Assembly (NCBI GenBank): GCA_000697665.1
Contig: KL197714.1
Location: 180,986 to 209,312 of the forward strand
Direction: 5' to 3'
Source of the DNA: Jaapia argillacea MUCL 33604
Lineage: Eukaryota; Basidiomycota; Agaricomycetes; Jaapiales; Jaapiaceae
Length of the DNA: 28,327 bases
The notes beneath the pieces are model-generated. The model ran no database searches. It was not told the DNA's origin and saw nothing but the letters and a program-made list of their open reading frames with translations. The position numbers and the translations under genes are program-made. Of the stretch, positions 1,545-28,327 are shown piece after piece (the stretch's first letter is position 1; the number at the start of each line of letters is the position of its first letter).

Positions 1545-1613
1545 TCAGAACATTGGAACATTGGAACATCAGAATTGGAACATTAAAACATCAGAATTGG
1601 AACATTGGAACAT
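1545..1613. repeat. minisatellite of AACATTGG/AACATCAGAATTGG units
   Basis: About 70 bp made of imperfect repeats of AACATTGGAACATCAGAATTGG and its shorter form AACATTGG. It lies directly upstream of the pogo transposase frame. Confidence 0.7.
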
Positions 1614-1637
1614 GCCAATTTGTGATCTCGCAGGTCC

Positions 1638-3885: not shown

Positions 3886-6800
3886 CTAATGAATGGAAAT
3901 AGGTGTTGAATTGGGGAGATGAATAAAGGTGATAGCACCAGATCTGGCACCAATAGCTATCACTTGAGATTCATTGACTACACAAAGATAGGCTATTCCT
4001 ATCAGAGCAGGTGGTATCCAAACAGTCCATTGATCAGAAGAAATAAAGCCAGACTGATCAATGGTAATGTCACTCTGTTTTCGAGGATACCGTAGTAGAA
4101 TATCTAGAGTGGACTGATACAATTCCATACCAGTACTGGTATTCCAATACTTCCAAACACCATCACCTGACCAAGAACCTAGTACAGTCCCATCTGGTGA
4201 GAAAAGAACTGACTTGACCCAGTGAGTGTGTCCCTCAAGTGCAGAGCCAATGCTTTGGCCAGTCTCTGTATTCCACAACCTGACTATCTTGCCATGTGAT
4301 GCAGAGGCCAGCTTTCTCCCATCTGGTGAGAAAGCAACACTATTAACTGCACCACAATGGTTCAAAATATGTAAACAAGATGAAAATAGTGTATGACTTG
4401 AGTGAATTTTTGGCATTGCTGTAAATCTGTTATAGTACTTTGTATACAGCTTCGTGGTATTGTATGACAAAGGCAATGCTGATGCATATACCTGCATCAC
4501 TCTCAGACTCAATGCAGGAGCACAATGTTGTATAAGTTGCAATGCTTCCTTAATCAATTCATGATCATCTATAGTTACATGTTCCTTTGAACGTAGTTGA
4601 AAATTAGCTGCTGTCTAGACTCACTAAGCTGTTTAGCTTACCTGGACATGTTGTATCAAACACTTCAATACTCCTTCTGTCTTTGAGATGCTTTTCAGAA
4701 AACTCATTATCTCCAACCATTGTAGTAGCTTTTTATTGACAAAAGTAGAGAGCTGTTTGATAACTTCTTGCTTATAGCTCATTATACTGACAATATGGTT
4801 TATGAAATGCTGGCAGGAATATTGTAATGCAGGTGGAACACATCTCTTCAACTTCTGCTCTAAGTTAATAGTACCTCCATTTAGCAAGGCCATGTTTGGA
4901 AGCCTGCAAATATTGAACCTCAGGTTGTTGTTCATCATTTGCAAGCAATCCTGTGCCAGGTATCTATTCTGGTCTTGAAGGTCTAGTCGATATAATTTAG
5001 GACACTCTGTACTTGTTGTCAGATAATCCAACAATGATGTGTGAATCAGTTCAATGGTTGGTTGATTTTTGAGAAGTGGCTTCAATTGACCCAACATCCA
5101 GTTTGTTCTTGCTTTCACATCAGACTCTCCATCTCATGTTTCAATAAACTCCACCAAAGATGCTTCAGTCTGAGGAACCTTCAAAACCACTATCAAACCA
5201 ACAATCTTTTGAAAATCCTCTGCAATTCCATTATTTGTCCCATGTTGTCTATTCATATTGATGTATGAGACAAAGATAGAGTACAGATGCTCAAGTCTAT
5301 TGTCACCTTGTTTTGAGGGCTGCAACATGGATAAGATCCATTTCTTATCAAATGGCCTGACCCTTATTTGTTTGCATACCAGTAAGGCCCATAGAAATAG
5401 CAACTGTCCACCAACTTTTTCTGGAAGTCTATATTCAGCCACTCTGTTGATTGACTATTTTGTTTCTGAATTTCCTTCATCTGACAGGCAATATACCTGC
5501 AGATATCCTCATGTGTGGTTCTAATAGCACTTTCAGTACCATCTAAGCAGTATTCTTTTAGGTCCATCAGATGATTGATAATATTTTGTTCCTTATGACT
5601 GGTCAACAGAATTTTTATATAGTCTGGCATTTCAAATTGCATCTTATATATGATTGATAGAATGCTAGCTTGAGCATTATCCTGAATTTCATCTAATGCA
5701 TCAATTATGATCAAAATTGGGCCAGATAGCTTTACAGCAGAAAGGGGCTCAATCAAAATCTTTTGAAATTGATGGGTCAATGACTGTGATGCTACATTCC
5801 AGTGCTTCTTCAATGCATCCAGAATCTTGCACTTTAGTGTCTCATCAAACTGGGTCAGCTGGTAGGCAATCTGACGGAAAATGCTTTCTGGTGGATGCTG
5901 GCAGACAAATCTAAAACTAGCTCCCAGTCTCTGTAAATTGTAAAACCGCTCTGCCATAGAGTTGGCAATTGTAGATTTTCCTGACCCAGCAACACCAGTA
6001 AGCCTGAGCAATCTGCTTTCACTGTCAAGGTGAAGAATCTCTGTCAGGCTATCTAAGACTTGTACTCTAGTACCAGCCAGACAAGCATGCTCTGGATCCC
6101 ATTGACATATATAAGAGTTTGAATCCTGTAAAGTATTCAGCAAGCCTTCTTCAGCTGCATACTGTAACAAGTCAAGATTCTGCTCAAGACCACGGACGGT
6201 AATCCAAGCTCCAGTTGTGCAACTTTGATCAACTTTTGTTCTTAAATCCTGAAAACTTTTAGAAAACTCTCTGATAGCATCAGAAGTTGAAAAAGTTCCA
6301 TGAAGTAGTCGTACCAAAGTGCAGATATGATTGAGAATGAAATTTCAATTGAAAATAAAATGTCAGCATTTACCTGGATAAGCCTGGTCCCCATACTTTT
6401 GAAGGAACAAACAACATTCATATACTTGCTTCATCATGGCAAGGAGCACAGGAGTACTGAATGTTTGAATCTGTGAAACAGGGTTAACCTGCTTTAGAAA
6501 ATCCAGTGCATCAGCAACTTCCAGCCAGAGCTTCTTGACTTGTTGATCACGGTCAGCCTGAGCTTTGAGAACCTTGAAAAAATATAGATCTAAGTTGTCA
6601 AATAAAAGATTCTCACCCCAAGCATAATTTACCTTGTATCCAGATGTCAAGACTTGCCAAGCCAACTTGGCATAAGGATGAACCTAGAAGCTATTGAACA
6701 TTTTCAAGGTTATTGGGAATTGCAATACTCACCTCAGATATCACATCACCAATCTTCACAACCTTTTCCAGATATCCACCTACAGTCTGCAAGAGATCAT

Positions 6801-7597
6801 TCCCGGTTATCCCATCAACATGATCAATGGCAGTCCCCATGTCATCAATGCCAGAAGGGCCATCAACTGTTGCAACAGCATTTTGTGCCTTGTTAGCCTC
6901 AGAAGTGATTACCCCCAGATCTTGTTCTGGTGGAACATTTTCTCCCTTCTCTGTGGCAGCTAAGGTTGTAACTATCCATACATTGTAATTATTATGTGAG
7001 AAACTGGTCAGCATGATGGACTCACTGCAAGGGACCACCATAACCTTCCCATAACCTGTCCCTCCCTCCTTCACCAGATCATGAGTAATCTCTGCAAAGC
7101 AACAGAGTTGGTAAGCTATCATAGCAAACAGTCAATGCTAGACACACCAGTTCCTCCAGACTGACCAGCCAACCCTTGAACAGGGATCGTGGCAGCGCCA
7201 CGAAAGGCATTGCCACTGGACCTCCGCCTGTGCAACACTTCAATGTGCCATATGGATGAGGTAGAGGTGGTCCTGAAGCATAATCAGCAAAAATCAGGAC
7301 CAGGACAAGTTGTCGTCACGCACATCGTGAAAGTTTCGTTCCATCATGGGTTGGCGCCCTTGATCGTTCAAGTGGTAAGGGCTTCGCCACCCCCACCAGT
7401 TATCTGAACAAAACAGTTCAGCACCTGCTTACGATGGTTGTGCAAGTCTTGAGCACCCAGGACTACATATCATCGCAGGATAAGCTTATTGGCACAGATC
7501 AGCGTCAGGTAAATCGACTCACTTGTCAACTCCAGGGTGATTGTCCCGTTCTCGTTGGCGGGACGTTGCCCCATGGGGTGGGTAACATTTGGTTCCA
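3886..7597 (-). pseudogene. C2-NACHT-WD40 NLR-like protein, decayed ('NLR-L', main part)
   Basis: STAND receptor read leftwards, with the same exon plan as NLR-R. Introns by comparison are 7463-7522, 7273-7323, 7092-7147, 6972-7025, 6684-6732, 6573-6632, 6314-6373 and 4585-4641. Order: C2 domain (ILGAQDLHNHRKQV, then WNETFTM), linker with [22 protein letters not shown] with Walker [10 protein letters not shown] and Walker [12 protein letters not shown], then only two WD40 units and the shared tail, ending at 3886. Damage: CGA-to-TGA stops at 7368-7370, 7344-7346 and 5134-5136; a 7 bp deletion near 5400-5406 (NLR-R reads [10 protein letters not shown] there); acceptor AG changed to GG at 6314-6315 in the last intron before the NACHT exon; and loss of contact with its start codon through the insertion at 7598. 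It carries four residues (in LEQKLKRC) absent from NLR-R. Not expected to give a full-length protein. Confidence 0.88.
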
Positions 7598-8758
7598 TGT
7601 GGGGAACCCAATCCACCTACAAACGGAATCGCGCCATTATATCATTTCGACTGTAACTCCATTGAATCAATCCCATCTCAAACGAAACTCGACTTTCAGT
7701 AATTCGCTCCCTCATCATTCCAAACTCGGAAATATCCAAACTTCCGAAGGCACGCCTAATCCTCCTAACGAATCGATCGTATTCCGGATGATGTCGGAAT
7801 TTCCTATCTGCTCCAACTCCGAGATTCCTCCCAAGACCAGATATCCACTATTTCGCCTCCACGTCACTCAGTATCGAGATTTCCGATGTTATCGAGTTGG
7901 GACCATATTCAACCCGACGATACGACTCCGATGCACCCGATGCGATTCCTAGGACTCCGAGACATCCGATTCGACTCAGAACTCCTCCTTCACCACCTTG
8001 GACTTACGACCTTGCACGTCCCCGGAATCTCGACAATCTTATCAGGAAGCTTCTTATCTCGATGATCCGAGTCCCGATACACTGCCACAACACGTTCCGA
8101 TGATCCGATACTCCGGGATTTACAAAACACTTACATCTCTCTCCACACCCATCACTTATCGACTTCTCCACCTCATGTCTGTGCTCTTAGACTGAGTCCT
8201 CGATCAGGGAGACACTCACTTTAGGTTTCCGAGATTAACTACTATAGATCCTGCTCATCCCAAGGCTTCTATGCACTTCCCCTTTCGGTCTGATACGCCT
8301 CCGCTAGGACTTCATTCGCTTCTGAGGATACTCAGTATGTTTTACCTCAGTTACTTGACTTCCGACTTGTCCCCCTCTTTCATTGCGCACTCCTTCACTT
8401 GATTCACCCTCATGTTGTCCCGAATTCACCTTTTCCTTTATCCTTTCCTATTCCATAGCTACCTCATGTACTTAGGTATAAAATCCTGCCCATAGCTACT
8501 TTCTCCAATAACAACCTTTCGTGATCTCTCTCGCCCTGAGTCGCTCTCGGATGTCGTTCACCCTCGTGCTCTCAATCTAAGCTGGTCCTTGTGTTGCTCT
8601 CTAGTGTCCCCTCAGAATCTGTCCATCTCGGAACTGACTTTCTTTGTTTTCGGGATTTCCGACTTTTCTAACTTTCGACTTGTGCTGACGTTTCCCGACC
8701 TTCACCTTCTTTCTCGATGCTTTCTTTCGATTTGTTCCAATCTTATTTCGTTCGGATT
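7598..8758. mobile_element. left part of the LTR-like element
   Basis: Pyrimidine-rich, non-coding-looking DNA rich in TCCGA/CGAT words. Short open frames here have no recognisable domains. It is interrupted by the Harbinger element at 8762 and resumes at 12955. Confidence 0.5.
8477..8483 (+). promoter_or_regulatory. TATA box in the LTR-like element
   Basis: TATAAAA in the context AGGTATAAAATCC, the only strong TATA motif noticed in the LTR-like sequence. It is compatible with a U3 promoter read on the plus strand. Confidence 0.35.
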
Positions 8759-8761
8759 AGT

Positions 8762-8784
8762 AGGGGAGGTCAGAGTCGACGATT
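8762..8784 (+). repeat. left terminal inverted repeat of the Harbinger element
   Basis: AGGGGAGGTCAGAGTCGACG then ATT. It matches the reverse complement of 12929-12951 at 22 of 23 bases. The direct repeat AGT precedes it. Confidence 0.88.
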
Positions 8785-8956
8785 TTGGTGTGATTCCCCT
8801 TGTGATTCTGTAACGATTTGAGTCACGAAATCATCACAGAATCGGGTCCAACTTTGACCACCCCGATTTTTGGCTGATTCTGCTGTGCTACTCAATACGA
8901 TCAACCATGCTCTGGCACATTCAAAAATCAATTTGTTTCACCCATCTCTTAACCCC

Positions 8957-10782
8957 ATGCCACGATATACCCCCCGCACTGCTCGCGCCCTCAAGATTAT
9001 CAAGGCCTATGTGAAGTTCATGAAGGACAACAAGCCCGCCTTCGACGAGCTCAGATTCGTAGGGCGACATATCCGAACACTCAACCACACCAGATGGGTG
9101 GACATTGTGGTCATTCCCTCAGCTTATCATCAATGTCCTCCATCAGCTTGTCTTCCTCTTCATCTACCCATTCCGATTCTTCTGACAGTGACAGCTCTGA
9201 TGCAGGTTGGGACAACTACGAGACAGAGGCCTCAGATGTATCTATCAGCATTCTGTTCGATGAGACTCTCGCCAACATGCCGGATTTACTACCAATTGGG
9301 GATGAGGACAAGGAGTGGGATGTGGATGGATCTGTGGGGTGGTCTTCTGGGGAGTCAAGCACTGGTTTGGAAAGTGATGGTGAGGATGGTGATGATGAGG
9401 GAAGTAGTTCAGAAGAAGAAGATGATGAGGACGACGATGTGAGACCATCACTCAGCATGGGTCGACATGTCCGTCACGAACTTGAGTCCATGTACACAAA
9501 TCGATATCAGATGCCACATGACCGCATGCCTCGCAGTCCTGCATTTCTCAACCATGTCCTTACGGTCCTCAAGACCTCTCGACCTGACCAGTTTCGAGAG
9601 AACCTGCAGGTCAACCCTACCACCTTCGACACCATCGTATGAGCTATCCAGAATGATCCCGTCTTCGCGAACGACTCACCCAACTCCCAGATTGTGGTTG
9701 AGACACAGCTTGCCATCGCACTCTACCGATTCGGTCACTATGGAAATGGGGCGGCACTTCAGCAGGTGGCTAACTGGGCAGGGGTAGCAAATGGTACCAT
9801 AGAGCTCGTGACGAGGCGTGTCATCACCGCAGTTCTTCAGCCAAACTTTTTGCGCACCGCAGTTCACTATCCAACACCTGAGGAGAAGGAAGTCGCAAAA
9901 GCCTGGGTTGAGAAGCACTCCTGCAAAGCCTGGCACGATGGATGGTGCCTCGTTGATGGCACTCTCGTTCCCCTCTACGACCGGCCGTATTGGTACGGCG
10001 AAAGTTATTTTGATCGCAAATGTAACTATTCCCTCAACATCCAGGTTTGTCTTTTCACCCTCTTTCAAATGGGATCTTCGTCGATGGCTAACAGCCATAC
10101 TAGATCATCTCCCTACCAAATCTCCAAATTATAGATTTCGGATTTGGCTTCACCGGTAGCACCCACAACAGAAGACTCGTTTAGCTCAGGAATACACGAC
10201 TGTACTGGAAGGTGGAGAGTTCATCTGGGCTGACTCTGCATATCCGGTCATTAATTTGCCTTGATGTAAAATTGTCGTACCCGCTCATACTACAACTAGC
10301 TTGCGACTTGGATGATATCACCTTATAAGAAGCCCAAATGAGACCTCCCGAACAACGATAAATTCAATAACCATGTCTCCATGGTTCGCATTAGGTCTGA
10401 GCATGCGATCGGCTACCTCAAGGGATGTTTTCAGTCACTGAAGAGTCTCCGAGTCAACATCAAGGATGCCACCTCTCACAAATTTGCGACATACTGGGTA
10501 GTGGCCTGTATTGCGACTCATGCCTTTGCAATGCATTGCAAGGAGGATGAGCGACAGGATGACTCAGATGATGGTGGCGTAGATGCTGACCCTTTTATTG
10601 CAGAAGGTTTGTCTTCGTCATTGGACTTGGAGGATAACACACGTCGTTTACCAGCCCGTCAACAACCAACAGGCACACGACTCCATGCAGCAAAGGTTCG
10701 ACGCGAGCAGCTGAAGGATGCACTCTTTCGTTCAAAAGATAGGAGAGCTCAACGACGAGCAGAGCGCCGGCTTCGTCGGTAG
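8957..10782 (+). pseudogene. PIF/Harbinger DDE transposase (DDE_Tnp_4 family), broken
   Basis: Endonuclease for cut-and-paste transposition. The N-terminal part after ATG 8957 changes frame near 9090 into a Ser- and Asp/Glu-rich stretch, so the start and first junction are uncertain. From about 9450 the frame reads RHELESMYTNRYQMPHDRMP, then QLAIALYRFGHYGNG and WVEKHSCKAWHDGWCLVDGT (first catalytic D in LVDGT). Introns: 10045-10103 (59 nt, CTAAC branch) and 10247-10299 (53 nt, GTCATT donor). After splicing: QIISLPNLQIIDFGFGFTGS, ADSAYP, then VRIRSEHAIGYLKGCFQSL (catalytic E). Damage: TGA at 9640-9642 and 10339-10341, both best read as former CGA, and a frame-changing deletion near 10166-10173 that removes the segment after GSTHN, where relatives carry the second catalytic D. 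The C-terminus is Arg-rich. Confidence 0.85.
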
Positions 10783-10930
10783 TTCAACACTCTCAGACAG
10801 TGTAGAATTCGCTTAAAAACACTTTGGCAAATTCAATACATAGATAAATCTTAACTGAATAGGTTTGTAGGGAATGGGAGAATGAAATGCATGGTGAATA
10901 AGTATGCGCTTGTGAGCCACATCGAACCTC

Positions 10931-12671
10931 CTACATATTTCCATCTGAAGTCCCTCCCATGACCGGACCCATGTCGAAACCTCCAAAGTGATTGGCTGTC
11001 CCCTGGGGAGAGCCAACTGCATTGCCCTCATACGAGCTGGAGCCATTGCTATGGCTTCCCAGAGAGTACGGAGTGTTGGGCATTGAGGGCCAGTCGTCGG
11101 GGATGGAGTGCTGAGAATGAGGGTGATGGGAATGAACATGCCAATCCGGGGTTGATAACGAATGATTGGGCAGTTGACTTGGCCCCGCAACTGAAGGACC
11201 AGTCTGTCCCAGTGAAGACTGAAGTCTCGCCATCTGGAGCAAGTGTAAGTGCTTCATCTGCAGCGTCTTCAACTCCAGCTGTTGGCGGAGTCGGACTTGC
11301 TTGAGCTCCTTCTTCGCATCGATCTTCTTGATGTCGACCTCCAATTTCTTGATCGCCTTTGTCTTCTGAAGATCGAGCTGCATCTGACGGGTCTTCTCCT
11401 CCAATAGGGCGATTTGTTCAAAGTCAGCAATCCCCTTCATCTTTTTGGTCTTCTGAGGCGGAGCAGGGGCAGAGACTCCAGGACAAGCAGGAGTCTTCTT
11501 GGGGGCTTGAGGAGCGGCAGTCAAAGGGGGTTTCATCGAAGCTCGAGCACCTTCTGTCTTTGGCTTCTTCGTCACAGCAGCGCCAAATTCAATCTCACTC
11601 TCGCTGCTATCATCCGACAACACCACCAGAGTGCTTGATGGCTTCATTGCAAGACCTGTGCTCTTTTTCACCTCTGTAACCTCGATGCCACCGTCCTCTT
11701 GCCCCAGATCACTCTGCTCCCCATCCTCGTGACCCTCGCTGCTATCACCAAAGCCTTGGTCGTCAACGCCGCTCGTCGTGTCACTAATGGTGAGATCTTC
11801 GCCTCCAGTACCAGGAATGACCACACCAAAGTCGAAGTCACTCTGGCTATTCCCTAGGCCAGTGGGGACAAGGTTCGGGCATTGAGCAATAAGCTCTCGC
11901 ATCTCGAAGTACCACGGGGCTTTGAGTTCATCCCAGACCTGTTCTGGAATATCGACCATCAAGACCAAATGACTTGGATAGCATTCAAGGGCAGAAAACC
12001 TACTCCACTTATCTGTGAAGGTGTTATCGTCGGTCATATTAATCTGTTCAGCTTTCATAATGCCAGCGCCAGTTTCCCTGAGGATTGTGTTTCCCTTCCG
12101 AGTTATCTCTGTCATCCTGCCACAAGTTAAGTTCGACATGGACTGTGATATCAACCTGATCATATCACGTACTTCGAAAGCCTATTCTTGATCTTGTTGC
12201 ACCATACTGTCTTGTCCTTGGGAAGGCCCTGTGCAGCTCAGTGGAAGGCTATCTTGTAATCATCGTGATTGGCAAAGAGAGCCACGCAAACTGCCCAGTA
12301 GTGCTCTGTTTTCGTCTTCCCACCATTCCTACGTTGGTTCGGACCCTCAGGTGGAAACAAGCCCCTCTTAATCACAGGATCATCACTGATGGCCCCAATC
12401 ATGGACCAGCTTAACTTGGCCTCGTCGCCGTCCCATCTATGTCACAATCACAATCATCAAGAAGCTAGCCTTACAAAGTTATGGTTGCTTACTTCACAAT
12501 TAGCCTCCCACCTTCCTCATCGTCAGCTTGAGGTTCGACTGGGTTGTTGTCACTATCGGGGTTGTTGTTGTCAGCTTTTGCAGAGGGTTTACACTTCCTC
12601 TTGGCAGGTTCTTGGGATGGCGTAGATGCCGTGACTGCTTTGGTAATGGGAGCTCGGGTTTTAGGTGCCAT
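10931..12671 (-). pseudogene. Myb/SANT-like Harbinger accessory DNA-binding protein, one nonsense codon
   Basis: Four exons, 12671-12493, 12436-12173, 12116-12004 and 11943-10931, with GT-AG introns of 56, 56 and 60 nt, join into 523 codons with phases that close exactly. Residues 1-60 are basic and Pro/Ala-rich (MAPKTRAPITKAV). Residues about 62-150 hold a trihelix/Myb-like region (LSWSMIGAISDDP, KRGLFPPEGPNQ, NKIKNRLSKMTEITR, ETGAGI) as in accessory proteins of fungal Harbinger elements. Then comes WYFEMRELIAQCPNLVPTGL, an acidic region, and a long Lys/Glu/Gln coiled coil at about 359-430. The end is Ser/His/Gly-rich. A single TGA at 12238-12240 (codon 126, inside FH*AAQGLPKD) interrupts it and is probably CGA to TGA. 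In PIF/Harbinger elements such proteins recruit the transposase to the element ends and help its nuclear entry. Confidence 0.8.
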
Positions 12672-12928
12672 CGAAGCAGAGGACGTGAAAGCAGGAGGTT
12701 ACAGGGTTGAGTGTCGTATAGATTAGCCAAAAACTTCAGTTGAATTAAATCAAATCTATATAACTATGACTGAGTTGACCGTGTCCAATGCTTGAAGAAC
12801 CATGATTCTGCACGTTGTTGCACCTCTCGAGTCGAAACAGTGATTCCAGCGATTCTGCAAGAATCGTGATTCTGGGAGCGAAAATCAAACTCAGAATCAG
12901 CACATGGGATCGAGCGAGAATCGTCGAG
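12672..12928. promoter_or_regulatory. right subterminal region of the Harbinger element with GATTC/GAATC repeats
   Basis: Non-coding. The motif GATTC or its complement GAATC recurs about eight times between 12800 and 12935 (for example GATTCTGCAAGAATCGTGAT and GAGAATCGTCGAGAATCG). The left end at 8795-8850 also carries GATTCC, GATTCTG and AGAATCGG. Such subterminal arrays are where Harbinger Myb-like and transposase proteins bind; the role here is inference. It also contains the promoter of the Myb-like gene. Confidence 0.45.
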
Positions 12929-12951
12929 AATCGTCCACTCTGACCTCCCCT
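12929..12951 (-). repeat. right terminal inverted repeat of the Harbinger element
   Basis: Reverse complement of the left terminus with one mismatch (G for C at position 16). It is followed by AGT, identical to the triplet before the left end. Confidence 0.88.
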
Positions 12952-12954
12952 AGT

Positions 12955-13359
12955 GTTCCCCTTTCGTTCCTATCCTGATGTATTAGTTTCAGTTCGTTCC
13001 AATTTGATTTCTTCATTTTCCTATCATTTTAGTTAGTTTCTGTCACACATCCTACAGTTAGTTTCGTCGTATCGCGTCCTTAGATTTCCGAGTAGTCCGA
13101 CCCGATCCCCGACGTTTCGGACACCTGCACAAGTACTCGCCATAGCGCACCCTCCCCTCAGGATTACTCCTCCACTATCGCTGTGTCAAGTCGAGTTTCC
13201 CTTTGTGTTCCAATTACTGGACACATCATTTCCAGACCTTACCTAGTCTGTCCTACACATTCCCACATCCTGAAACACTGATCCCTCCCGTTCTTCAATT
13301 CTCATTGAAGATGAACAACCTACCCTCTCTTGGAACTTACGCACCCTGAGTACCCCACA
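12955..13359. mobile_element. right part of the LTR-like element
   Basis: Continues the LTR-like sequence after the Harbinger insertion and ends in CCCCACA next to the NLR-L start fragment. No open frame of note. GC/AT texture is like the left part (TTCGTTCC and TCCGA words). Confidence 0.5.
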
Positions 13360-13379
13360 TCGGTAGTGGTTTGATTCAT
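13360..13379 (-). pseudogene. NLR-L start codon and first codons (displaced 5' fragment)
   Basis: Reading leftwards from 13379: ATG AAT CAA ACC ACT ACC, identical to the first six codons of NLR-R (MNQTTT), after which the LTR-like element begins. Upstream of the ATG, 13380-13417 matches the 5' flank of NLR-R (ACAGAATCAATC and TCC-ACAAACA shared). This fixes the position of the true NLR-L start and shows that the rest of its exon 1 lies 5.76 kb away at 7597. Confidence 0.85.
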
Positions 13380-13420
13380 AGCGATTGATTTGATTGATTC
13401 TGTGATGTTTGTTGGAAATG

Positions 13421-13450
13421 CTAAGATAGGCCTCATGCAAACACGATTAG
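13421..13450 (+). repeat. left 30-bp terminal inverted repeat
   Basis: Exact 30 bp inverted match to 14341-14370. Confidence 0.85.
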
Positions 13451-13538
13451 GTGTGACAACGTGTGACCATCACATGAAGTGCAGGACTCCAAAACCACAG
13501 TGAACAAGCTAACCCAGAAAAGAAAGTGACAGCAACAA

Positions 13539-13604
13539 GAATCGAACCCAAGCCTGCCGGAAAAGCAAGACAAAAAGTAGTCAAAGTCAACAACTACTGA
13601 GCCA
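13539..13604 (-). promoter_or_regulatory. tRNA-like Pol III A and B boxes (possible SINE head)
   Basis: On the minus strand TGGCTCAGTAG (13604-13594) fits an internal A box and GGTTCGATTC (13548-13539) fits a B box, about 45 nt apart. A seven-base GCCTTCG precedes the A box as an acceptor stem would, but the 3' partner stem and the D and T stems do not pair well, so it is not a functional tRNA. It may be a tRNA-derived SINE head or a chance match. Confidence 0.3.
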
Positions 13605-14340
13605 CGAAGGCATACAAAGGAAAGCAATGCAGTGTTATATGATGCCGTGGGCTTGGCTGCCCTGCAAATTCACCTAAATTCATCCCCTTAGCTTGTTCCG
13701 TAACTCATTAAGTTCCTTGCTCAAGGCATCGAGCATGGTGTGGGTGGTTTGGGTGGGTGTGTTGCACATACCAAGCCTACACAGTCATGTAATGCCGCAT
13801 TACCTTACTTCATGTGCCTATGTAGATGAGTTGTTGTTGCTGCAGATCTTTTTTGGTTTTTTTTCCGCAAGGCTTGCGTTTGATCCCCTGTTGTTGCCGC
13901 CATTACATAATTGATGTCCACAATGTCAGCAGCCACAAATGGACTAGCATCGGAACCTGTGGCCAGCCACGGGAAACACAAGCGCTCCATTGCTTGCCAG
14001 GGCTTGCAAAGTCACGTGTCTGTGCGTGAGAGCTCCATCGCTCACCAAGGCTCACGAAGGAGCACGCGTGCTTCTTCCGTATTATCTAATACCAGTTTTT
14101 CCCACGCACTTCCTTTAGTCAATGGTAGGATTTCGGGGTCTCTTTGCCACACCGATTCTGAGGCCTATTCACCTAATAACTTGCTCCCCATTGTGTTTAA
14201 AAGAAATCAGCTTCCTGGGGCCCCTTGGAAACTGTGCTATTGATTATTGACAGGAAGCACTTTTTTTGATTTCATAGTGTAGACGAAGTTATTAGGACGA
14301 AAACGCTCCTCACCAAACGTGACAAAAAAGTCACGTGAAG

Positions 14341-14370
14341 CTAATCGTGTTTGCATGAGGCCTATCTTAG
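14341..14370 (-). repeat. right 30-bp terminal inverted repeat
   Basis: Exact inverted match to 13421-13450. The palindrome arm resumes immediately after it. Confidence 0.85.
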
Positions 14371-14371
14371 A

Positions 14372-18040: not shown

Positions 18041-18740
18041 GGCGCTGACTTTCCTTTCCGTAAACGGTGGTTGAGCGGTTGGTGATATTGGTGATAGTTG
18101 GATGCAAAGGATGGGTCGAAAGAGACTGTCGTCGGCTTCTTGGCATAGACTGTGTGTCCATCCTTCCTGTATGCCTCCCCGTTCTGAATGCGAGATATGC
18201 GGTTTTCGCAGATTCCTACTTTCATCCTCCAGCGGTAGTCATCACCCACCGTGGGCGATATCTCCCTCTCAGCCTTGATTCCAGGCCGTAGCATACTCTA
18301 TGTTGAGTCTCACTCGAAGCTTCTCGGGTTCCTCGCAGGCTTTCCGTCGCTCCGGACTCAGCAGGGTGTACTGTCCGTCGAACAAGTCTCTCCTTCAAGA
18401 ACGGATTTTGCTTTCACTGACCAGATCCATGATGCTCATGAAGAAGCTTCTATCGGTCAGTGCTCAATCCGAAAGTCCTTCCACTCAATCTCAATCTATT
18501 ATCTCCTCTTATTGCACATGTACCACGCACCCCTTCGATCATTCACAAACTCGCCGGCACAGCGTTACTCGGCAACAGCTACCTGGTCAACCTGTCTGCG
18601 GTTCCAAGACGACTCCCTCTCCCCACCATTTCCGTAGGCCAATCGTTCCTCACCAACACGGACACGGGATCTTCTCCTACCAAATGAATCCTGTCTTCTC
18701 CCCGCGTCAGGCTTGGATATCAACGGGCTGGACGCAGTCG
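18041..18740. other. spacer at the palindrome centre, left part
   Basis: Unique sequence between the two X arms. Several overlapping plus-strand frames (about 18251-18770) are Ser/Thr/Pro-rich and show no domain. Given the neighbouring X-like fragment at 18750 this may be an older, more diverged X copy, but no alignment can be defended here. Confidence 0.3.
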
Positions 18741-18749
18741 TCGTTCCTG

Positions 18750-18935: not shown

Positions 18936-19153
18936 ATTCCGGGATTCGTTTCCCCAGGCTTCTTCACCGCCAGTTTCGTCCTTCCCAGCTGTTTCCTTCG
19001 TCCAGGCCCGTCGGTGATTTGGCACAAGCTGGATCACCTCCAGACCCATCGACGTAAAGTGATGATTGTTCAGGAGGATTCCAGCCAACACCACGGGCAC
19101 TTCCCCTTCTATGCCATCGTAAGTCTGCTTTCATTCGTCCCAATTCTCCGTGT

Positions 19154-19525: not shown

Positions 19526-19539
19526 TTGGGTACTCTACT

Positions 19540-20931
19540 CCTCGCCCACGCACAACGACACCCCTCCCAACCACCCTCCACCCTCTTCCCTCTCCCCCTG
19601 ACCACATTCTCCATCTTCATCGAACTGCGCACCACCAACATCTCCCCATCCCTCACACTTGACGCCGGGTGAATCTCGACCACCTTGCCCATTAGGGGCG
19701 AAGCGATGGATCATCGGTCCCCTGGGTCCCCCAACTCGAAAGGGGAAGAGAAGAGTGCTGCGAGGATTCGGTGGGTGAGAATGTCGCTTACACCACTCTG
19801 GGGAGTCGGTCGGGGAAGGTGTCGTGCGAGAATCGACGGCAATGCCATTGTATGCTTCTGCAGAGTCGATGTGATCCTCGGATCCGGAGGATCCTCTGGA
19901 GAGTTCCAGGTCGAACGTCGTACCAGGCTGGAGGAGGACAATACCAGAGGATATCCCGATACTCATCGTCACACCAGCCCAAACAGGTACCAATCGTCAC
20001 TCAACAACCCTTGGCCTACTCTCCAAAATCGAACCGAGGTTCCAGTCGTCTCCACCTTCGCACCCACCCAATCCTCAATGACCTGATAACCCCCACCACG
20101 TCTTCACACCACCCTCTCGCCGTAATCCTTCTAGGCTCCTCGAGCTCTCTGGTTCTGCTCTTCAAAATCGTTGCCGCGCCGCCAACGATAATTCTAGCGA
20201 GGGAATCGAAATCATGTTCGACGGTCCGTTCAGCTCCCGCTTCGTGGGCGGTGGAAGGTGAGGTACAGAGCCAGGTATCCATTCGTACTCCCTCTCGGAT
20301 GGCGCGAGAGGGATCCCCTGGTTCCAGACGGGGTTGTATGGCATAGCCACTAGGCGAAGACGGGAAACTGAATGATCGAAGGGAAGTATCGGGGAGTGAC
20401 AGCAGGAGCTGAGTCCGACAACGTCGACATTCGACATCCTCCCTGTCACGAAAAGAATTAGTCTCAATGTAATGAGTGGGAGTAGGGGAGAACAGACCCG
20501 TGACTGTATACTGTATGCTCTGCTTGTACCTGCACTCATCTCCATGAAAACCCATTTGTCGGAATTGGCGTTGGCGAGGTACTCGAACGTTCCGAAACCT
20601 TATTAGTCCCCAAGCATTTTGAGGGAGGCTGAGAGGAGAGGTTTGGTTCCAGGCAACGTCGAGGGAGCCATCTGACAGATATTCGTGAGATCGAAATGAG
20701 AGTTCGGAGTGGATGGTGCTTACCTCTACGATTTTCCGGAATCTAGGGTTCGCGTTCTGTCAGATGTTGATTTCGAAGATCTGAGAGGGAAAGGGGGCGA
20801 ACCTTAATTGGACACTCCACTCCATCTCCCAACAATGCCAAACTTCAGGCGACCCCATTGGCTACAACCTGCACTTCGATATGTTTCCGCCCACGACCCG
20901 ATAACGCTTTCTCGACGAATAACCTGCGAGA
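19540..20931 (-). pseudogene. biotin-dependent carboxylase fragment (biotin carboxylase C-half plus biotinyl domain)
   Basis: ATP-dependent carboxylation of biotin, as in 3-methylcrotonyl-CoA, propionyl-CoA or urea carboxylases. Leftwards from 20931: FVEKALSGRGRKHIEVQVVA (the HIEVQV motif of the ATP-grasp domain), a degenerate CSVQ region, intron 20672-20723, GTFEYLANANSDKWVFMEM (the EMN motif), intron 20443-20529, SGYAIQPRLEPGDP and VRMDTWLCTS and DFDSLARIIVGG (biotin carboxylase C-terminal domain), LQPGTTFDLELS, then the biotinyl domain MGKVVEIHPASSVRDGE and SSMKMENVV (lysine at about 19615-19617). Multiple frame changes and two adjacent stops near 20605-20612 show it is dead. The N-terminal half is missing, cut where the X-R arm begins (about 21092). 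The exact carboxylase type is unresolved. Confidence 0.75.
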
Positions 20932-21091
20932 CGGACACTCTCCCACACCTGAGACACACGTAACTTTAGCATACAGTGGGGAAGAGGTGAAAACCAAGGG
21001 AACGGACGTTCCGTTTAAATGACTCCTCCAGATCAGATTCCCTCTTGAACAATCCAAATACCCTCCCACAGGCCAACGCGCCGAGGCAGCC

Positions 21092-24000
21092 CTTTTCGAT
21101 CCACCCACACAACTTCCACACAGCGCCCTCAACGAAGAACTAAACAAAATTCCAGCTGTTTGTGCTTTCGATTGACGGAGATGGACGAGAACAGGAGAAG
21201 GTCCGAGGAAATTGAAATTGTTGCGGAATGGAGGAGGATGGAGAGACGGAGAGAGTTGAGAGTTGAGAAGTGTGATGGTGTCTTGGAGGGTTGTGAGAAA
21301 CACAGCCTGGAAGTTTGTACCGACGTGTCGTCAACTTCGAAGTCTATTAAGGCCAGTGAGTACCGTAGCGAGCGATGATGAATAAGCCAAGTATCCGTAG
21401 CTATCAAGACGGCTCGCAATAAGCTCAGTCCCTCAAGCAAATTCCACAGAGACTAAAGCCCATCCGCAGCTTCACAACCAGTAGACGTGTCTTCTCGATA
21501 GAATAATTAGGTCGGGTATAGTTTGTAGTCCAAACCGGAACCAGTCTGTGTAGCGGTCAGGGGCACCTGATCAGATAACGGGACGGACGAATAGGATTTC
21601 TGGTGGTGTTCATACCTGCATACATGCTACGCGAGCTACGGGCGTGTGATGACACATCCTTCCAACAATCACGAAGCTTAATGTTGGGAAAGTGGCGAGG
21701 TTCCCTCCAGCATTGCGCCAGTCGGTTACGGTTTGAGGGGAGGCGAAGGCTGCGAGCTATCATACATCGTCAGTTTCTCGATTGATAGATAAAAAAAGTG
21801 ATCACACCTTGCATCTCGGTGTCGATCCCAAATTGACCCAAGTGTCTAGCGAGGACACGGCCGATTTCTTCTGGGTCCTTCAACAACATCCCCTGGGGTA
21901 TATTCGAACGGCATTGTGAAGATTGAGAAGGTAGGAAGGAAATGTTTTGCTCAGAATGTTGTCGCAAGAAATCGATCACGCTTAGCGTTGATGGGTGAGG
22001 ATGTCGTGGCCAAGTATTCGCAGTCGTGAGCAATGGAACGGATTGGAGGAGCGAAGGGAGCGGCAAGCATTGTACCAAATTGGGAGGAAGGAATCTCGGA
22101 CTAGAATACATGGGTGGGCTAGCCAGAGGGACCGCTTGGGTAAAGTCAGAGTGTGCTGCTCAGCAGGCGAGATTGAGCTAAAGAGAAATAACATACCTAA
22201 GATTCTCGGAGTCGCTTCAACTGACTGAGGTGAGTGCCAGGACCATTGACCAACACAAGAACGCGGGAATGCGATGGCGGTACTTCGATGGGAGAAGAGT
22301 CTGGAGATTCGGATGGGAAGAGTTGTACACGGCGTTGGTGGGGACAATAAACGTGATGGAATGTTGAGAGAGGGCGTCGTCTTGCTGGAGTGGCTGCAGG
22401 AGTCGAACGTCGTACATCGAACACTTGGTTGAAGTTGAACATTTGCGATTAGATAAGATAAGCAACTCCTCTGGCTTTGCTTTGTAGTCAACGTGTCAGC
22501 CTTGACTTACCTTTCGCTGCAGCACCCATGGTCTCAGTCCCATACGTTCCTGATCCGAAACTTGTTGTCCTTGCCACCATCTAGACGTCAGCATACAGGC
22601 TGAGTTTATGGGATAGTCCATCCAACAGTCGAGGGCGCTTGGGCTATCAATCCATTCCATCCCCAATCATATCTGACACAACTTCCGGTTCACACAATTC
22701 CTTCACTCGCTCTCCAAACCACGTTGTTAGGATCCACCTTCCTTTATCCCTTCAGCGCTCTCCGCCTCCGTGATCTCTTCGCGAAACGATATCCTTCGCA
22801 AAGCGGCGACCCCAACTCGAAGCAACCAATCGAGGGCATGTCCTGACCGAGAGAGTGTTCTACCTGAGACGAGGTTATGTGAATGGTGAGTTTCTCAATC
22901 CTGTGTGAGTCTCGCTGGCTACCCGAGGCGACGGTTTTACTCAGCAGCTAATCCCTAGTTCTTACAGGACCACGCGGATCCGCCTCCCACACTGACGACA
23001 TCGAAACGCCATCATATCGCAAAGCTAAAGTATATCACTCGCCCACGCCCAGCTATCCACACCAGTCCGGTCAGCTCTGCCGTCCATCAGCGCTTATATT
23101 CTCCATCCAGTCGCCTCCGGGATCAACGATGACGACCCGCTTGTGCTTGAGTTCGGCACTTCCAACGAGATATTGTTGAGGGTGGTCACGAGCAAGTTGG
23201 AAGGGGTTGTTTGTAGGTTTCGTTTTGTGACGAGATCGATAGTTGGGCCAGGGATGGTTCAGTTTCGTTGGGGTAACAGATGACCTAAGCTCATCAAGTC
23301 TGTCTTCAAATCTAATATCAATCAATCAATTTTTATTCGAATCTTCGACTACAGCATATCGTTTCCCGAAAGTGGCTACCGAATTCGACATCCTCGAGAA
23401 GAGATATCGTAGTCTCGGACGCACATCCTAACACAGCATACAGTCAATATCCACGGATTGTCGAGATGCGAATCGGATACTCACGGAGAGAGACCGTGTT
23501 GAGAATTCCCTCACATCGCGCAAGCATGGACGGCACGTATCGTCGACTCGATTATTGACAGGAATTACTTGCCACACGATTCCCGATGCTTCTCTGAGCG
23601 CCTGCATTGATCGACCATCGAGGGGTAGAGAGAAGGAAAGCACGCAGTCGTACACTCGGTAGAGAGATCCCGAAGGAAAAACGATGAGGCATGTTGCGAG
23701 TCAACAACTTGTGAACGGCGGAGAGGTCGTCGCGAACGAGGGGATAATCGCGATGAGGTGGGGTGAGGGTGGTGGATTCTTGAATAGGTGGTGGCATCAA
23801 GGCTTCAGGGGTGACACAAAATGAGCCAAATTCCGACGATCAGGAGCGAGAGCGTACCAAACGAGAGGACCTGTCGATAAAAAGAACCCGCTAGGGCACC
23901 ATCCGACCGAGACTGCAGAAATCAACCACCCTCGCAGAGAGAACTCCTCCCGGTGCTGAATGGTGGTGTCCTTCAAGTTGATGGTAAAGACAAGATCTTG

Positions 24001-24249
24001 AGGTGAGTGCTTGGGTATCGCGGATTGGACTTGGCCACAGACTACGAAAGCGCCTATTACCTCTACGTCGTCGACAGGATGGTCTGATAGAATGTCCGCG
24101 CGATGTGACGGTGATCGGGTCCTCTTATTGCTACAATCTCCCTTGAACGCTTGCCAGAGAGAGCGACCATCCTGCGTAAGTGGATTGGTCGGTGCGCTGG
24201 ACATATGCGGTACGAAAAGGATCGTGCTCACCCAAACTACCAATACCAC
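21092..24249 (-). pseudogene. gene X, right copy ('X-R'), unidentified and broken
   Basis: Inverted homologue of X-L. The start is near 24250; SLRGWLISAVSVGWCPSGFF lies around 23930-23870, followed by STGPLVWYALAPDR. Further on: SAELKHKRVVIVDPGGDW (about 23160), RVKELCEPEVVSDMIGDGMD (about 22700), HKLSLYADV and MVARTTSFGSGTYGTET (about 22610-22530), FNQVFDVRRSTPAATPARRR, RVLVLVNGPGTHLSQLKRLR, and SNIPQGMLLKDPEEIGRVLA (about 21909-21850). Damage: a TAG at 22581-22583 where X-L has GAG, two stops after GMD near 22640, and frame changes throughout. Conservation of several motifs in the same frame in both arms argues it was a real protein-coding gene. Function unknown. Confidence 0.5.
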
Positions 24250-24756
24250 AACGTCCTCTTCGCGTCAATGCCATAATTTATGCACGACGGTGCTGAACAG
24301 ATGTCGGATGAGTCATTCCGCAGGATGTGAGGAGTGCTATGGAAGGAACATGGGATTCGGAAACCATCTATCTCCGAAGTAGAGGCCGAAAAGACACTGA
24401 GGGATTGTTCAACATACGATTGCGAAGTCGAGGGATAGTGTTTCTCGCCAGGTCTACGATGGGCAAGGCAAGGTAATACACCTTAGCGACGCAACGAAAA
24501 ATGGGGGTGATTGACTACTCAACAGAACAACAAGGAGAAAGGATAAGAGTCTTTACGGCCTTGTCAAGGCCATCTCAACAGCGTCGACCCCGTTCTCCAG
24601 AGGAAACGGACCATAAGCAGCGCACGCGCGACATCGTTGGGCGGAAGGAAAGCTGACGTGGCCAAATCGGGATCAGACCTGTCGCTTGTCCTCAACCAGC
24701 GTCTTCAAGCTCTAGCTTTTCCGACAAACAACACAGAATCAATCGAATCTATCGCA
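24250..24756. promoter_or_regulatory. divergent intergenic region between X-R and NLR-R
   Basis: About 500 bp between the apparent X-R start and the NLR-R ATG. Bases 24250-24697 match 14372-14800 in inverted orientation, with conserved blocks GGAAGGAAAGCTGACGTGG, TCGGGATCAGACC and AAAATGGGGGTGAT. Bases 24712-24756 match the NLR-L 5' flank at 13380-13421. Conservation in both arms of non-coding sequence between two divergent genes suggests a shared promoter. No TATA box is obvious. Confidence 0.5.
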
Positions 24757-27700
24757 ATGAATCAAACCACTACCGTACCAAATATTGCCCACCCCGTGGG
24801 GCAACGTTCCGCCGACGAGAATGGGACCATCACCCTGGAGTTGACGAGTGAGTACACTTGCCCGACACTGATCTGCACCGATAAGCTCATCCCGCTGCGA
24901 TTTGTAGTCCTGGGTGCTCAAGACTTGCACAAACATCGTAAGCAGGTGCCGAACTGTTTTGTTCGGGTAACTGGTGGGGGCGGCGAAGCCCTTACCACTC
25001 GAACGGTCAAGGGCACCAACCCACGATGGAATGAAACATTCACGATGTGCGTGTCGACGACTCGTCCTGATTTCTGCTGATTTCTGCTTTAGGATTACCA
25101 CTACCTCATCCATCTTGAGCATTGAAGTCTCGCACAAGCGGATGACCAGTGGTGATGCACTTCGTGGTGTAGCCAGGATCCCGGTCCAAGAGCTGGTTGG
25201 TCAGCCTGAAGGAACTGGTGTGTCTACCCTTGACTAGTGTGTAAGCATGGCTCACGACCTCTGTGTTGCTCTGCAGAGACTACTCGTGATCTTGTGAAGA
25301 AGGGAGGGACAGGTTATGGGAAAATTATGGTGGCTTCCCGTAGTGAGTCCATTGTGCTTACTATCATGTCTTTAAATAATTACAATGTGTGTGTAGTTAC
25401 AACACCAGCCACTAGAGAGCAGGGGGGAAATGTCCCACCAGAACAAGATCTTGAAGTAATTGCTGCAGAGGCTGATAAGGCGAAAAATGCTCTTGCCATG
25501 ATTGATGGGCCTCCTATTGATGCTGTGGGGACTGTCATTGATTGTGTTGATGGGGTAACTGGGAATGATCTCTTACAGACTGTAGGTGGATATCTGGAAA
25601 AGGTTGTGAAGATTGGTGATGTGATATCTGAGGTGAGTGTTGTAATTTCCAGTGACCTTGTAAATGTTCAACAGCTTCCAGGTTCATCCTTATGCCAAGC
25701 TGGCTTGGCATGTCTTGACATCTGGATACAAGGTAAATTATGGTTGGGGTGGGAATCATTTATTCTGCAGCTTAGAGATACCTTTTTTTCAAGGTTCTTA
25801 AAGCTCAGGCTGACCGTGATCAACAAGTCAAGGAGCTCTGGCAGAAAGTTGCTGATGCACTGGATTTTTTGAAGCAGGTTGATCCTGTTGCAAAGACACA
25901 AGTCTTTGTTACTTCTATGCTATTGGCTATGATGAAGCAAGTCTATGAATGTTGTCTGTTCCTCCAAAACTATGGAGACCAGGCTTATCAAGGTAAATGC
26001 TGATGTTTCATTTCAATTGAGCTTTCTTAATCATACCTGCACTTTAGTACGACTCCTTCATGGAACTTTTTCAACTTCTGATGCTATCAGAGAGTTTTCT
26101 AAAAGTTTTCAGGATTTAAGAACAAAAGTTGATCAAAGTTTCACAACTGAAACTTGGATTAGCATCCGTGGTCTTGAGCAAAATCTTGACTTGTTGCAGT
26201 ATGCAGCTGAAGAAGGCTTGTTGAATACTTTACAGGATTCAAACTCTTATATATCTCAATGGGATCCAGAGCACACTTGTCTGGCTGGTACTAGAGTACA
26301 AGTATTGGATAGCCTGACAGAGATCCTTCATCTTGACAGTGAAAGCAGATTGCTCTGGCTTACTGGTGTTGCTGGATCAGGAAAATCTACAATTGCCAAT
26401 TCCATGGCAGAGCGATTTTATAATTTACAGAGACTGGGAGCTAGTTTTAGATTTGTCCGCCAGCATCCACCAGAAAGCATCTTCCGTCAGATTGCCTACC
26501 AGCTTACCCAGTTTGATGAGACACTAAAGTGTAAGATTCTGGATGCATTGAAGAAGCACTGGAATGTAGCATCACAGTCATTGACCCATCAAGTTCAAAA
26601 GATTTTGATTGAGCCACTTTCTGCTATAGAGCTATCTGGCCCAATTTTGATTATAATTGATGCATTGGATGAAATTCAGGATAATGCCCAAGCTAGCATT
26701 CTATCAATCATATATAAGATGCAATTTGAAATGCCAAACTATATAAAAATTCTGTTGACCAGTCGTAAGGAACAAACTATCACTGAGCATCTGATGGACA
26801 TAAAAGAATACTGCTTAGATGATACTGAAAATGCTATTAAAACCACACACAAGGATATCAGCAGTTATATTGCCTATCAGTTGAAGGAAATTCAGAAAAG
26901 AAATAGTGAATCAACAGAGTGGCTGAATATGGACTTCCAGAAAATGTTGGTGGATAGTGCTGGTGGGCTATTTCTATGGGCCTCACTAGTGTGCAAACAA
27001 ATAAGGGTCAGGCCATTTGATAAGGAATGGATCTTATCCATGTTACGGCCTTCAAAGCAAGATGACAATAGACTTGAGCGTCTGTACTCTATCTTTGTCT
27101 CATACATCAATAAGAATGGGCTACATGGGACAAATGATGGAATTGCAGAGGATTTTCAAAAGATTGTTGGTTTAATAGTAGTTCTGAAGGTTCCTCAGAC
27201 TGAAGCATCTTTGGTAGAGTTTATTGAAACACGAGATGGAGAGTCTAATGTGAAAGCAAGAACAAAATGGATGTTGGGTCAATTGAAGCCGCTTCTCAAA
27301 AATCATCCAACTATTGAACTGATTCACACCTCATTGTTTGATTATTTGACAACAGGAACTGAGTGTCCTAAATCATATCGACTGGACCTTCAAGCCCAGA
27401 CTAGATACCTGGCACAGGATTGCCTGCGAATGATGAACAACAACCTAAGATTCAATATTTGTGGGCTTCCAAGCATGGCCTTGCGAAATGAAGGTATCAT
27501 CAACTTGGAGAGATGTATTCCACCTGCATTACAATATTCCTGCCAGCATTTCATGAACCATATTGTCAGTATAATTAGCCTTGAGGAAGAAGTTATCAAA
27601 GAGGTATCTACTTTTGTTAATGAAAAGTTACTACAATGGTTGGAGGTGATGAGTTTGCTGAAAAAGATCTCAAAGACAGAAGGAACGTTGAAGGGTTTAG

Positions 27701-28327
27701 TGCAATGTGTCCAGGTAAGCTAAACAGCTTAGTGATTGTAAATAGTAGCTAATTTTTAACTTCTCCCAAAGAAACATGTAACCATAGATGATCATGAATT
27801 GATGAAGGAAGCATTACAACTTATACAACATTGCACTCCTGCATTGAGTCTGGGAGCAATGCAGGTGTATGCATCAGCACTGCCTTTGTCCTATAAAACC
27901 ACAAAGCTATATGCAAAGTACTATGACAGATTTACAGCAATGCCAAGAATCCACTCAAGTCATGCACTATTTTCATCTTGTTTACATATTTTGAACCATC
28001 TTGGTGAAGTTAATAGTGTTGCTTTCTCACCAGATGGGACAAAGCTGGCCTCTGCATCACTGGACAACACAGTCAGGTTGTGGAATGTAGAGACTGGCCA
28101 AAGCATTGGCTCTGCACTTGAGAGACACACTGGTGGGGTCGAGTCAGTTGTTTTCTCACCAGATGGGACAAAGCTGGCCTCTGCATCACAGGACAACACA
28201 GTCAGGTTGTGGAATGCATAGACTGGCCAAAGCATTGGCTCTGCACTTGAGGGACACATTGACAGGGTCAACTCAGTTGTTTTCTCACCAGATGGGACAA
28301 AGCTGGCCTCTGCATCAGATGACAACA
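24757..28327 (+). CDS. C2-NACHT-WD40 NLR-like protein ('NLR-R'), stopped in the WD40 region
   Basis: Signal-transducing STAND ATPase. Exons: 24757-24847, 24908-25046, 25093-25217, 25277-25342, 25397-25632, 25682-25732, 25794-25992, 26048-27714 and 27772 onward. All introns are GT-AG of 46-61 nt and the first eight exons total exactly 858 codons. Residues about 25-115 are a C2 domain ([41 protein letters not shown]), a fold that binds membranes, often with calcium. Residues 220-236 [17 protein letters not shown] begin a helical linker typical of basidiomycete NLRs. NACHT: Walker [10 protein letters not shown] at 409-417, Walker [12 protein letters not shown] near 502-512. From residue 859 come [16 protein letters not shown], a helical region and WD40 repeats. 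A TAG at 28219-28221 (GAG in sibling repeats) ends the frame at 1007 residues in repeat two, although homologous WD40 sequence continues to the window edge. Start: first ATG before the C2, conserved in NLR-L. Confidence 0.9.
28000..28327 (+). repeat. 129-bp WD40 tandem repeats of NLR-R
   Basis: At least three units to the edge: [40 protein letters not shown] and [20 protein letters not shown]. They differ mainly in the residues after GHT/RHT (GG-VE and DR-VN) and before DN (L, Q, D). The array runs out of the window, so the repeat number is unknown. Confidence 0.85.
28219..28221 (+). other. premature TAG in NLR-R WD40 repeat 2
   Basis: Context GGAATGCATAGACTGG, where the same position in NLR-0 repeats reads GGAATGCAGAGACTGG. 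A single G-to-T change converts GAG (Glu) to TAG. The reading frame and repeat pattern continue unchanged after it. Confidence 0.8.

Follow-up and report, generated by a model that had tools for sequence, protein, structure and literature searches.

We analyzed a stretch of 28,327 nucleotides (the window) from Jaapia argillacea MUCL 33604, located at positions 180,986 to 209,312 of contig KL197714.1 (C6:180986-209312; C18, C24 and C40 designate other contigs) in an assembly of 43.7 Mb and 95 contigs (GCA_000697665.1). The window carries two genes of the NOD-like receptor (NLR) type, NLR-L and NLR-R, each adjoined by a region X (X-L and X-R), and the original prediction described them as a large inverted duplication of a head-to-head NLR/gene X pair. 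The mirror arrangement is real, but neither recent nor unique. We consider it, with a probability of about 0.75, as one inverted pair within an old and small multi-copy family of C2-NACHT-WD40 genes that underwent birth-and-death, mosaic exchange and, over the NLR body, a domain of CpG loss. The main features of the window are the following:

24757-28327, plus strand: NLR-R, a C2-NACHT-WD40 gene (Pfam C2, NPHP3_N/NACHT and WD40), the window ending inside the WD40 array.
24757-24847, 24908-25046, 25093-25217, 25277-25632, 25682-25732, 25794-25992, 26048-27714 and 27772 onward, plus strand: exons of NLR-R.
21084-24697, minus strand: X-R, the non-coding mirror arm, whose RUS-like part is truncated.
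19597-21083, minus strand: decayed remains of a biotin-dependent carboxylase (matched at the protein level over 19597-20420 and at the DNA level to 21069).
18051-18726, plus strand: distal end of the X-L module, which follows C18:734478-736621 colinearly (85%).
14372-18050, plus strand: X-L arm, non-coding, with about 62% DNA identity from about 17257 to the RUS-gene region at C6:8.4-9.8 kb.
13421-14370, unstranded: second left-arm element, 950 bp, with perfect 30-nt terminal inverted repeats.
13361-13423, minus strand: start of NLR-L exon 1 with 5' flank (start codon 13377-13379, placed by eye).
7594-13360, unstranded: insertion of 5767 bp in NLR-L exon 1, holding a PIF/Harbinger-like element.
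3886-7593, minus strand: body of NLR-L, broken, with stops, a deletion and two WD40 stretches left.

The exon model of NLR-R, whose splice sites were picked by eye, is stop-free to 28169. Using Pfam, we detected a NACHT-type NTPase domain (NPHP3_N, 6e-24; NACHT, 6.2e-7), C-terminal WD40 repeats (4.8e-24) and an N-terminal C2 domain (8.8e-9, positions 3-60 of 104), the latter in the stop-to-stop open reading frame (ORF) before splicing. Taking fungal NLRs generally as a guide, we presume that the WD40 part is the variable sensor, NACHT the switch and C2 the effector or membrane end; by analogy, members of the family would function as receptors. WD40 array length varies strongly within the family. 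A repeat array is also present in the related NLR on C40, and shifted self-matches of the C40 and NLR-R arrays, both interrupted by N, showed about 84-97% identity at the DNA level, so that they may belong to the WD40 NLRs of high internal conservation (repeats with 85% amino-acid identity over at least 100 aa). The C40 NLR displays a long WD40 array with N (C40:249.6-252.6 kb), and NLR-L two WD40 stretches.

A DNA search of the assembly found the 5' half of the NLR also at C6:176534-178203, at C40:246539-248224 and, as a 413-bp remnant, at C24:484077-484472. The family comprises five modules, with an NLR body at C6:176.5k, 186.9k and 205.7k and at C40:246.5k, and with 413 bp only on C24, and an X copy adjoins NLR sequence in all five. 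The predicted NLR/X mirror pair therefore exists, but represents two of five modules, four of which have an NLR body. The C6 modules are arranged as X-LL(-) NLR-LL(+), then NLR-L(-) X-L(+), then X-R(-) NLR-R(+), NLR-LL being a third copy that reaches into the window. Runs of N in WD40 arrays flank the window (C6:178515-180985, 2471 bp, and C6:209313-210406), and none is present within it. NACHT matches in the assembly amounted to 54 rows, 5 from the C2-NACHT-WD40 family and the others distant. The exact motif TTAGGG x4 was absent from the assembly, which neither supports nor excludes a subtelomeric location.

Self-comparison of the window revealed antidiagonals between 24777-28169 and 7593-4187 (87.9%) and between 24713-24775 and 13423-13361 (90.5%), together with an X antidiagonal between 21084-24697 and 18050-14372 that is continuous only in pieces. 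Against the reverse complement of the right arm, identity was 0.886 for the NLR block (4187-7593 versus 24777-28169; shuffled control 0.413), 0.905 for the 63-bp NLR-start block (13361-13423; control 0.441) and 0.745 for the X block (14372-18050 versus 21084-24697; control 0.409). These results confirm mirror-image arms around a 3 kb centre and, as predicted, a symmetry hidden by 6.7 kb of left-arm insertions, which we measured at 6717 bp (5767 bp and 950 bp). They support an inverted duplicate of one contiguous segment, made up of the NLR and its flank, into which DNA was inserted later. The larger insertion includes a PIF/Harbinger-like element with 31-nt inverted repeats (87%) at 8754-8784 and 12929-12959 and a DDE_Tnp_4 ORF at 10342-10782. 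The 950-bp element probably has a TA target duplication, judging from a visual comparison with the R, LL and C40 copies, which lack the element. The 3 kb centre showed no match between its own halves (identity 0.429, control 0.440), in agreement with a centre outside the mirror; it is not a plain spacer, however, as it holds the tail of a RUS relic and the carboxylase relic.

The frames of NLR-R and of the C40 NLR are open as far as readable, and the readable part of NLR-LL has one nonsense codon. NLR-L has lost 7 nt at 5402/5403 and carries three nonsense codons (7370-7368, 7346-7344 and 5136-5134), and the insertion, about six codons into the gene, severs the start of exon 1 from the gene body; a fourth stop, at codon 2, falls inside the inserted DNA. 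With one member broken in this way, the two NLRs are not a live pair.

Within the L-R pair, NLR exons were more alike (0.892) than introns (0.817) or the X block, an excess that the original prediction had noticed and attributed to selection or to conversion. For L-R, synonymous divergence (dS) was 0.227, intron divergence 0.210 and nonsynonymous divergence (dN) 0.086 (dN/dS 0.38); for R-C40, the corresponding values were 0.253, 0.232 and 0.093 (dN/dS 0.37). Since dS is about equal to intron divergence in L-R, the higher identity of exons does not require conversion, which we dropped as its cause; it comes from purifying selection on the protein. The similar dN/dS of the two pairs indicates that constraint acted on NLR-L during most of its existence, and supports selection on both copies after duplication, as proposed, through most of their history.

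The second partner, X, had been taken for a gene. We searched the substitutions of the five X copies for a 3-base periodicity and obtained a median ratio of 1.22, compared to 1.53 for the NLR (introns included). Shared open frames did not exceed 58 codons in X, compared to 166 in the NLR. The longest stop-free stretches of X-L, X-R, X-C40 and X-C24 were 247, 174, 224 and 253 amino acids (aa), slightly above the 95th percentile of shuffles (217, 217, 217 and 206) in three of four, and that of the centre was 247 aa (95th percentile 242). Ten pieces taken from X and the centre yielded nothing above the Pfam cut-off, X had no Rfam hit reaching the gathering score, and no tRNA was found within the window. 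With no periodicity, no long shared frame and ORFs near chance, we rejected X as a protein-coding partner (an NLR/effector pair such as NWD2/het-S) and, from the Rfam and tRNA results, as a known structured RNA or tRNA. Proximal X (14372 to about 16550, 2.2 kb) matched only other non-coding copies. On the distal side, a RUS relic at 17939-18490, with seven in-frame stops, matches the RUS ORF at C6:9017-10162 (Pfam UVB_sens_prot, 2.3e-10). X, at least distally, thus consists of housekeeping-gene debris carried along with the NLR and is not a partner gene. The carboxylase relic meets X-R at 21084, with an identical junction in C40; it has an open relative at C6:217243-218343 (Biotin_carb_C, Biotin_lipoyl), and NCBIfam gave partial matches to several carboxylases, nothing more. 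Copies of the biotin carboxylase C-terminal part, one open and several decayed, were observed at C6:215511-218343, 200582-201405 and 169652-170363 and at C24:72771-85661, several of them close to NLR modules.

To reconstruct the history of the copies, we compared their distances and edges. Distances in X were 0.136 for LL-C24, 0.249 for R-C40, 0.254 for L-C24 and 0.306 for L-R. At the inner edges, C40:242101-244076 is colinear with window positions 20496-22460 (78.7%), spanning the X/carboxylase junction, and the match to C18:734604-736594 spans the edge of the L arm at 18050. The X distances and these unlike inner edges exclude a recent duplication of a whole arm; an old inversion between L and R would fit the distances equally well, had its arms given rise to the other copies afterwards. 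At the outer side, an aspartokinase gene (ACT_9 in Pfam, asp_kinases in NCBIfam) lies beyond NLR-R. When the 1241 bp at the 3' end of this gene were searched for at the DNA level, the full stretch was recovered only at C6:211272-212512, beside R, and scraps at the 3' ends of LL (532 bp, 88%), L (99 bp, 99%) and C40 (105 bp, 84%). Because the only full-length aspartokinase adjoins R, R is likely the founder locus. The features on the left side of the window that bear on this point are:

1-1019, plus strand: 3' end of NLR-LL, the third copy, with its 5' part at C6:176534-178514 across the 2471 bp of N.
1020-1451, minus strand: duplicate of the aspartokinase 3' end in LL, with its counterpart at C6:211371-211803 beside NLR-R.
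1452-3643, plus strand: transposase stretch between NLR-LL and NLR-L, pogo/Tc1-like, with DDE_1 in the ORF at 2362-3399; a search for terminal inverted repeats at its ends gave chance-level matches only.
3644-3742, unstranded: aspartokinase 3' scrap beyond NLR-L, with its counterpart at C6:211272-211370 (1 of 99 sites differs).

We then analyzed informative sites in the quartet R, L, LL and C40, the NLR quartets spanning only the part of LL before the gap. In X, 89 of 146 sites united R with C40, 31 R with LL and 26 R with L; in the NLR, 38 of 71 united R with LL, 18 R with L and 15 R with C40. These patterns are discordant (chi2 32.8, p 7.5e-8), so the copies exchanged sequence. Labels were clustered along X (45 runs, 81.6 expected; 0 of 5000 shuffles as low); in the NLR, clustering was weak (35 runs, 44.0 expected, p 0.013). 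Overall, the exchange among the copies did not generally favour the mirror partner. The predicted exchange is supported at the level of the family, and partly, between L and R, by one 99-bp tract and two X segments presented below, but not as a general homogenization of arm with arm.

The second property of the family is its CpG content, expressed as the observed/expected ratio (o/e). Two depleted domains are present in the window:

25200-28327, unstranded: domain of CpG depletion covering the body of NLR-R (400-bp bins, o/e 0.05-0.33).
3600-7150, unstranded: domain of CpG depletion covering the body of NLR-L (400-bp bins, o/e 0.00-0.21).

In the same bins, X and the centre were at about 0.7-1.4. 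In 250-bp bins, o/e fell from 0.85 to 0.22 at 25200, about 450 bp past the NLR-R start codon, with a similar edge in C40 and in the L arm, and it recovered inside the aspartokinase end on the R side (0.22 at C6:211200, 0.75 at 211450 and 1.43 at 211700). NLR introns and the 3' flank were likewise depleted. The aspartokinase scrap of LL provides a natural experiment, the same sequence being present in its own gene and attached to NLR-LL: in the latter place, 23 of the 23 CpGs of the R copy were lost, 20 of them as TG, CA or TA, compared to changes at 25 of 386 other sites. In NLR-L, each of the three nonsense codons that lie outside the insertion is of the CpG-to-TpG type, and C-to-T singletons fell at CpG in 11/39 cases for L, 1/32 for R, 3/16 for LL and 4/27 for C40. 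The TpA/ApT ratio was 0.64-0.67 in the NLRs and 0.52-0.75 elsewhere; as it is not raised, we rejected repeat-induced point mutation (RIP) of the ascomycete type (C-to-T at CpA, raised TpA/ApT). Matches to DNA_methylase (PF00145) were found in the assembly as 5 rows at 3 loci. The CpG loss is likely a methylation-coupled decay.

We extended this analysis to 20 other NACHT loci, of our own choice from 49 match rows outside the family. Four were depleted (L024, L027, L029 and L042), with an o/e of about 0.1-0.2 over the NLR body, as in the two domains of the window, and about 1.0 in most flanks; 16 were at 0.91-1.14 over the NACHT match. In the stretches fetched, one of the four has a 129-bp tandem WD40 array and three run into N; no 129-bp array occurred among the best two arrays of each of the 16 non-depleted loci, one of which (L032) runs into N. 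The four loci may form one clade with this family, so these counts may not represent independent events. Outside receptor genes, the pogo-bearing stretch at 1452-3643 had an o/e of 0.30. Two arrays of 77-bp units, within a segment common to C6 and C24, were also nearly CpG-free: positions 308-2670 of locus L009 (C6:161.3-163.7 kb; 30.6 copies; 0.05) and 1846-3575 of L012 (C24:477.8-479.6 kb; 22.5 copies; 0.03).

In the family history that we propose, the copying unit would be the NLR with a 5' flank already holding RUS-gene debris and with a scrap of the neighbouring aspartokinase. From the probable founder R, a reversed copy would have been placed beside it (L), another beyond (LL) and others on C40 and C24. 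The copies then diverged by about 15-35% at neutral sites, exchanged pieces, acquired transposons and died one by one. In the NLR body, but not in its first 450 bp or so or in the 5' flank, CpG turned into TpG/CpA, most simply via cytosine methylation and deamination. In this history, the copies with their junctions, their divergence and mosaic structure, the broken frames and the loss of CpG are observed, and the founder, the copying direction, the methylation and the receptor function are inferred. A bolder extension seems to us unlikely: in live receptor genes, gene-body methylation would occupy a domain that begins some 450 bp downstream of the start codon and reaches the 3' border, and would serve as a built-in source of CpG-to-TpG mutations, varying NACHT-WD40 receptors and killing surplus copies.

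Several observations weigh against parts of this history. The founder hangs on one gene scrap. In the 99-bp tract at the outer edge, L and R differ at 1 of 99 sites, with 9-13 differences in each of the preceding six 100-bp bins; R differs there from LL at 12/99 and from C40 at 26/98 sites, and the tract likely reflects a short and recent L-R exchange, or else a recent copy. Two X segments favour L+R, and when C24 replaces LL, the X counts become 149 for R+C40, 50 for R+L and 36 for R+C24. The L-R divergence in X (0.306) exceeds the neutral divergence of the NLR (0.227), which can be read as conversion in the NLR, and in the other four NLR pairs dS (0.199-0.247) exceeds intron divergence (0.163-0.177). 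Concerning CpG, the repeated X copies remain near 1.0, the left-arm inserts are only mildly low (0.78 at 7594-13360 and 0.60 at 13421-14370), and a 105/210-bp array at L037, one of the 16 non-depleted loci, is CpG-rich (1.30). The values of X and of the inserts show that repetition or transposon status alone is not enough, and duplication alone or tandem repeats alone as a trigger of CpG loss are contradicted by X and L037.

An independent arrival of the two modules, facing each other by chance, would differ from our family history only in the route of copying, and we regard it as rather unlikely. The inner edges are unlike, R having the carboxylase relic common to C40 and L continuing like C18, and the three C6 modules alternate in orientation, as chance would allow. 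Three copies in about 35 kb nevertheless suggest local copying, and the R locus is indicated by the aspartokinase scraps of L and LL, the former being nearly identical to R. The 99-bp tract makes this explanation slightly less likely, and a palindrome-driven one slightly likelier. As for the CpG deficit of the NLR body, a foreign origin or codon choice in place of methylation-coupled decay is a doubtful explanation. In its favour, the depleted NLRs (the four loci and this family) may be one clade, and the transposon-bearing left-arm inserts are both less depleted, but the aspartokinase scrap is not NLR sequence and its LL copy still lost every CpG, introns and the 3' flank are also depleted, and so are the pogo-bearing stretch and the two 77-bp arrays.

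According to the original prediction, a single inverted duplication formed a palindrome that drives arm-to-arm conversion and unstable copy number, keeping the NLRs alike and generating diversity. The mirror order does hold over the NLR, the 5' flank and X, the copies are mosaic, identity between L and R reaches 99% in the 99-bp outer tract, two X segments favour that pair, and the X distances also fit an old in situ inverted duplication that seeded the other copies. The arms, however, are neither nearly identical nor closest relatives, the 99-bp tract excepted: their divergence ranges from 11% in the NLR exons to 25% in X, insertions of 6.7 kb interrupt the left arm, which also contains a dead NLR, L+R accounts for only 26/146 sites in X and 18/71 in the NLR, and the longest exact inverted run between L and R is 85 bp, compared to 94 bp for L-LL and 86 bp for LL-C40. 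We therefore consider this explanation improbable, its palindrome story being overdrawn and better replaced by a readable history of receptor copies. A misassembly of alleles or haplotypes, conceivable for a window lying between N runs in WD40 arrays where the assembly is probably weak, is very improbable given the absence of N within the window, a neutral L-R divergence of 0.2-0.3 that looks too large for alleles, one-sided insertions, unlike inner edges, and the separate backing of each edge by C40 and C18 except at about 18.73-19.60 kb.

The family history recalls that of NWD/HNWD genes in Podospora anserina (het-d, het-e and the NWDp pseudogenes), for which exchange of repeats is described, together with dead members struck by RIP (Paoletti et al., 2007; PMC1805685). 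Both are multi-copy NACHT-WD40 families with live and dead members, exchange between members and C-to-T mutation that inactivates some members, and the near-identical WD40 repeats of Podospora may have a counterpart in Jaapia. In contrast to that family, the N-terminus in Jaapia is C2, the mutated dinucleotide is CpG, and members with open frames are affected too. In the available part of Dyrka et al. (2014; PMC4986451), a few basidiomycota are listed with C2 at the N-terminus of NLRs, and WD40 repeats prevail in basidiomycota and are highly alike, as those of Jaapia may be; inverted modules or CpG loss are not described there. Excerpts on Rhizoctonia solani AG8 (PMC4014442) report a CpG-biased C-to-T mutation in genes and repeats of a basidiomycete, as in Jaapia, with CpG-to-TpG spread over genes and repeats alike, whereas at the Jaapia loci examined the loss is sharp-edged and concerns one receptor-gene class, some tandem arrays and one transposon stretch. 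A decay from CpG to TpG, ascribed to methylation followed by deamination, also marks basidiomycetes with Masc2-like methyltransferases; in the portion available (PMC4352252), this signature concerns transposable elements and not receptor genes as in Jaapia. Among the literature matches listed, themselves available in part, we found no report of inverted NLR modules or CpG loss in fungal NLRs, nor of sharply bounded CpG loss on NLR bodies with open frames. If methylation is indeed the cause, this would be a mutational process centred on intact fungal immune-receptor genes, unlike ascomycete RIP.

Finally, an unnamed conserved gene occurs three times (C6:5.5-6.2 kb, C6:171.5-174.1 kb and C24:488.3-490.9 kb) close to the RUS gene or to relics of it, so the copied segments exceeded the NLR module.

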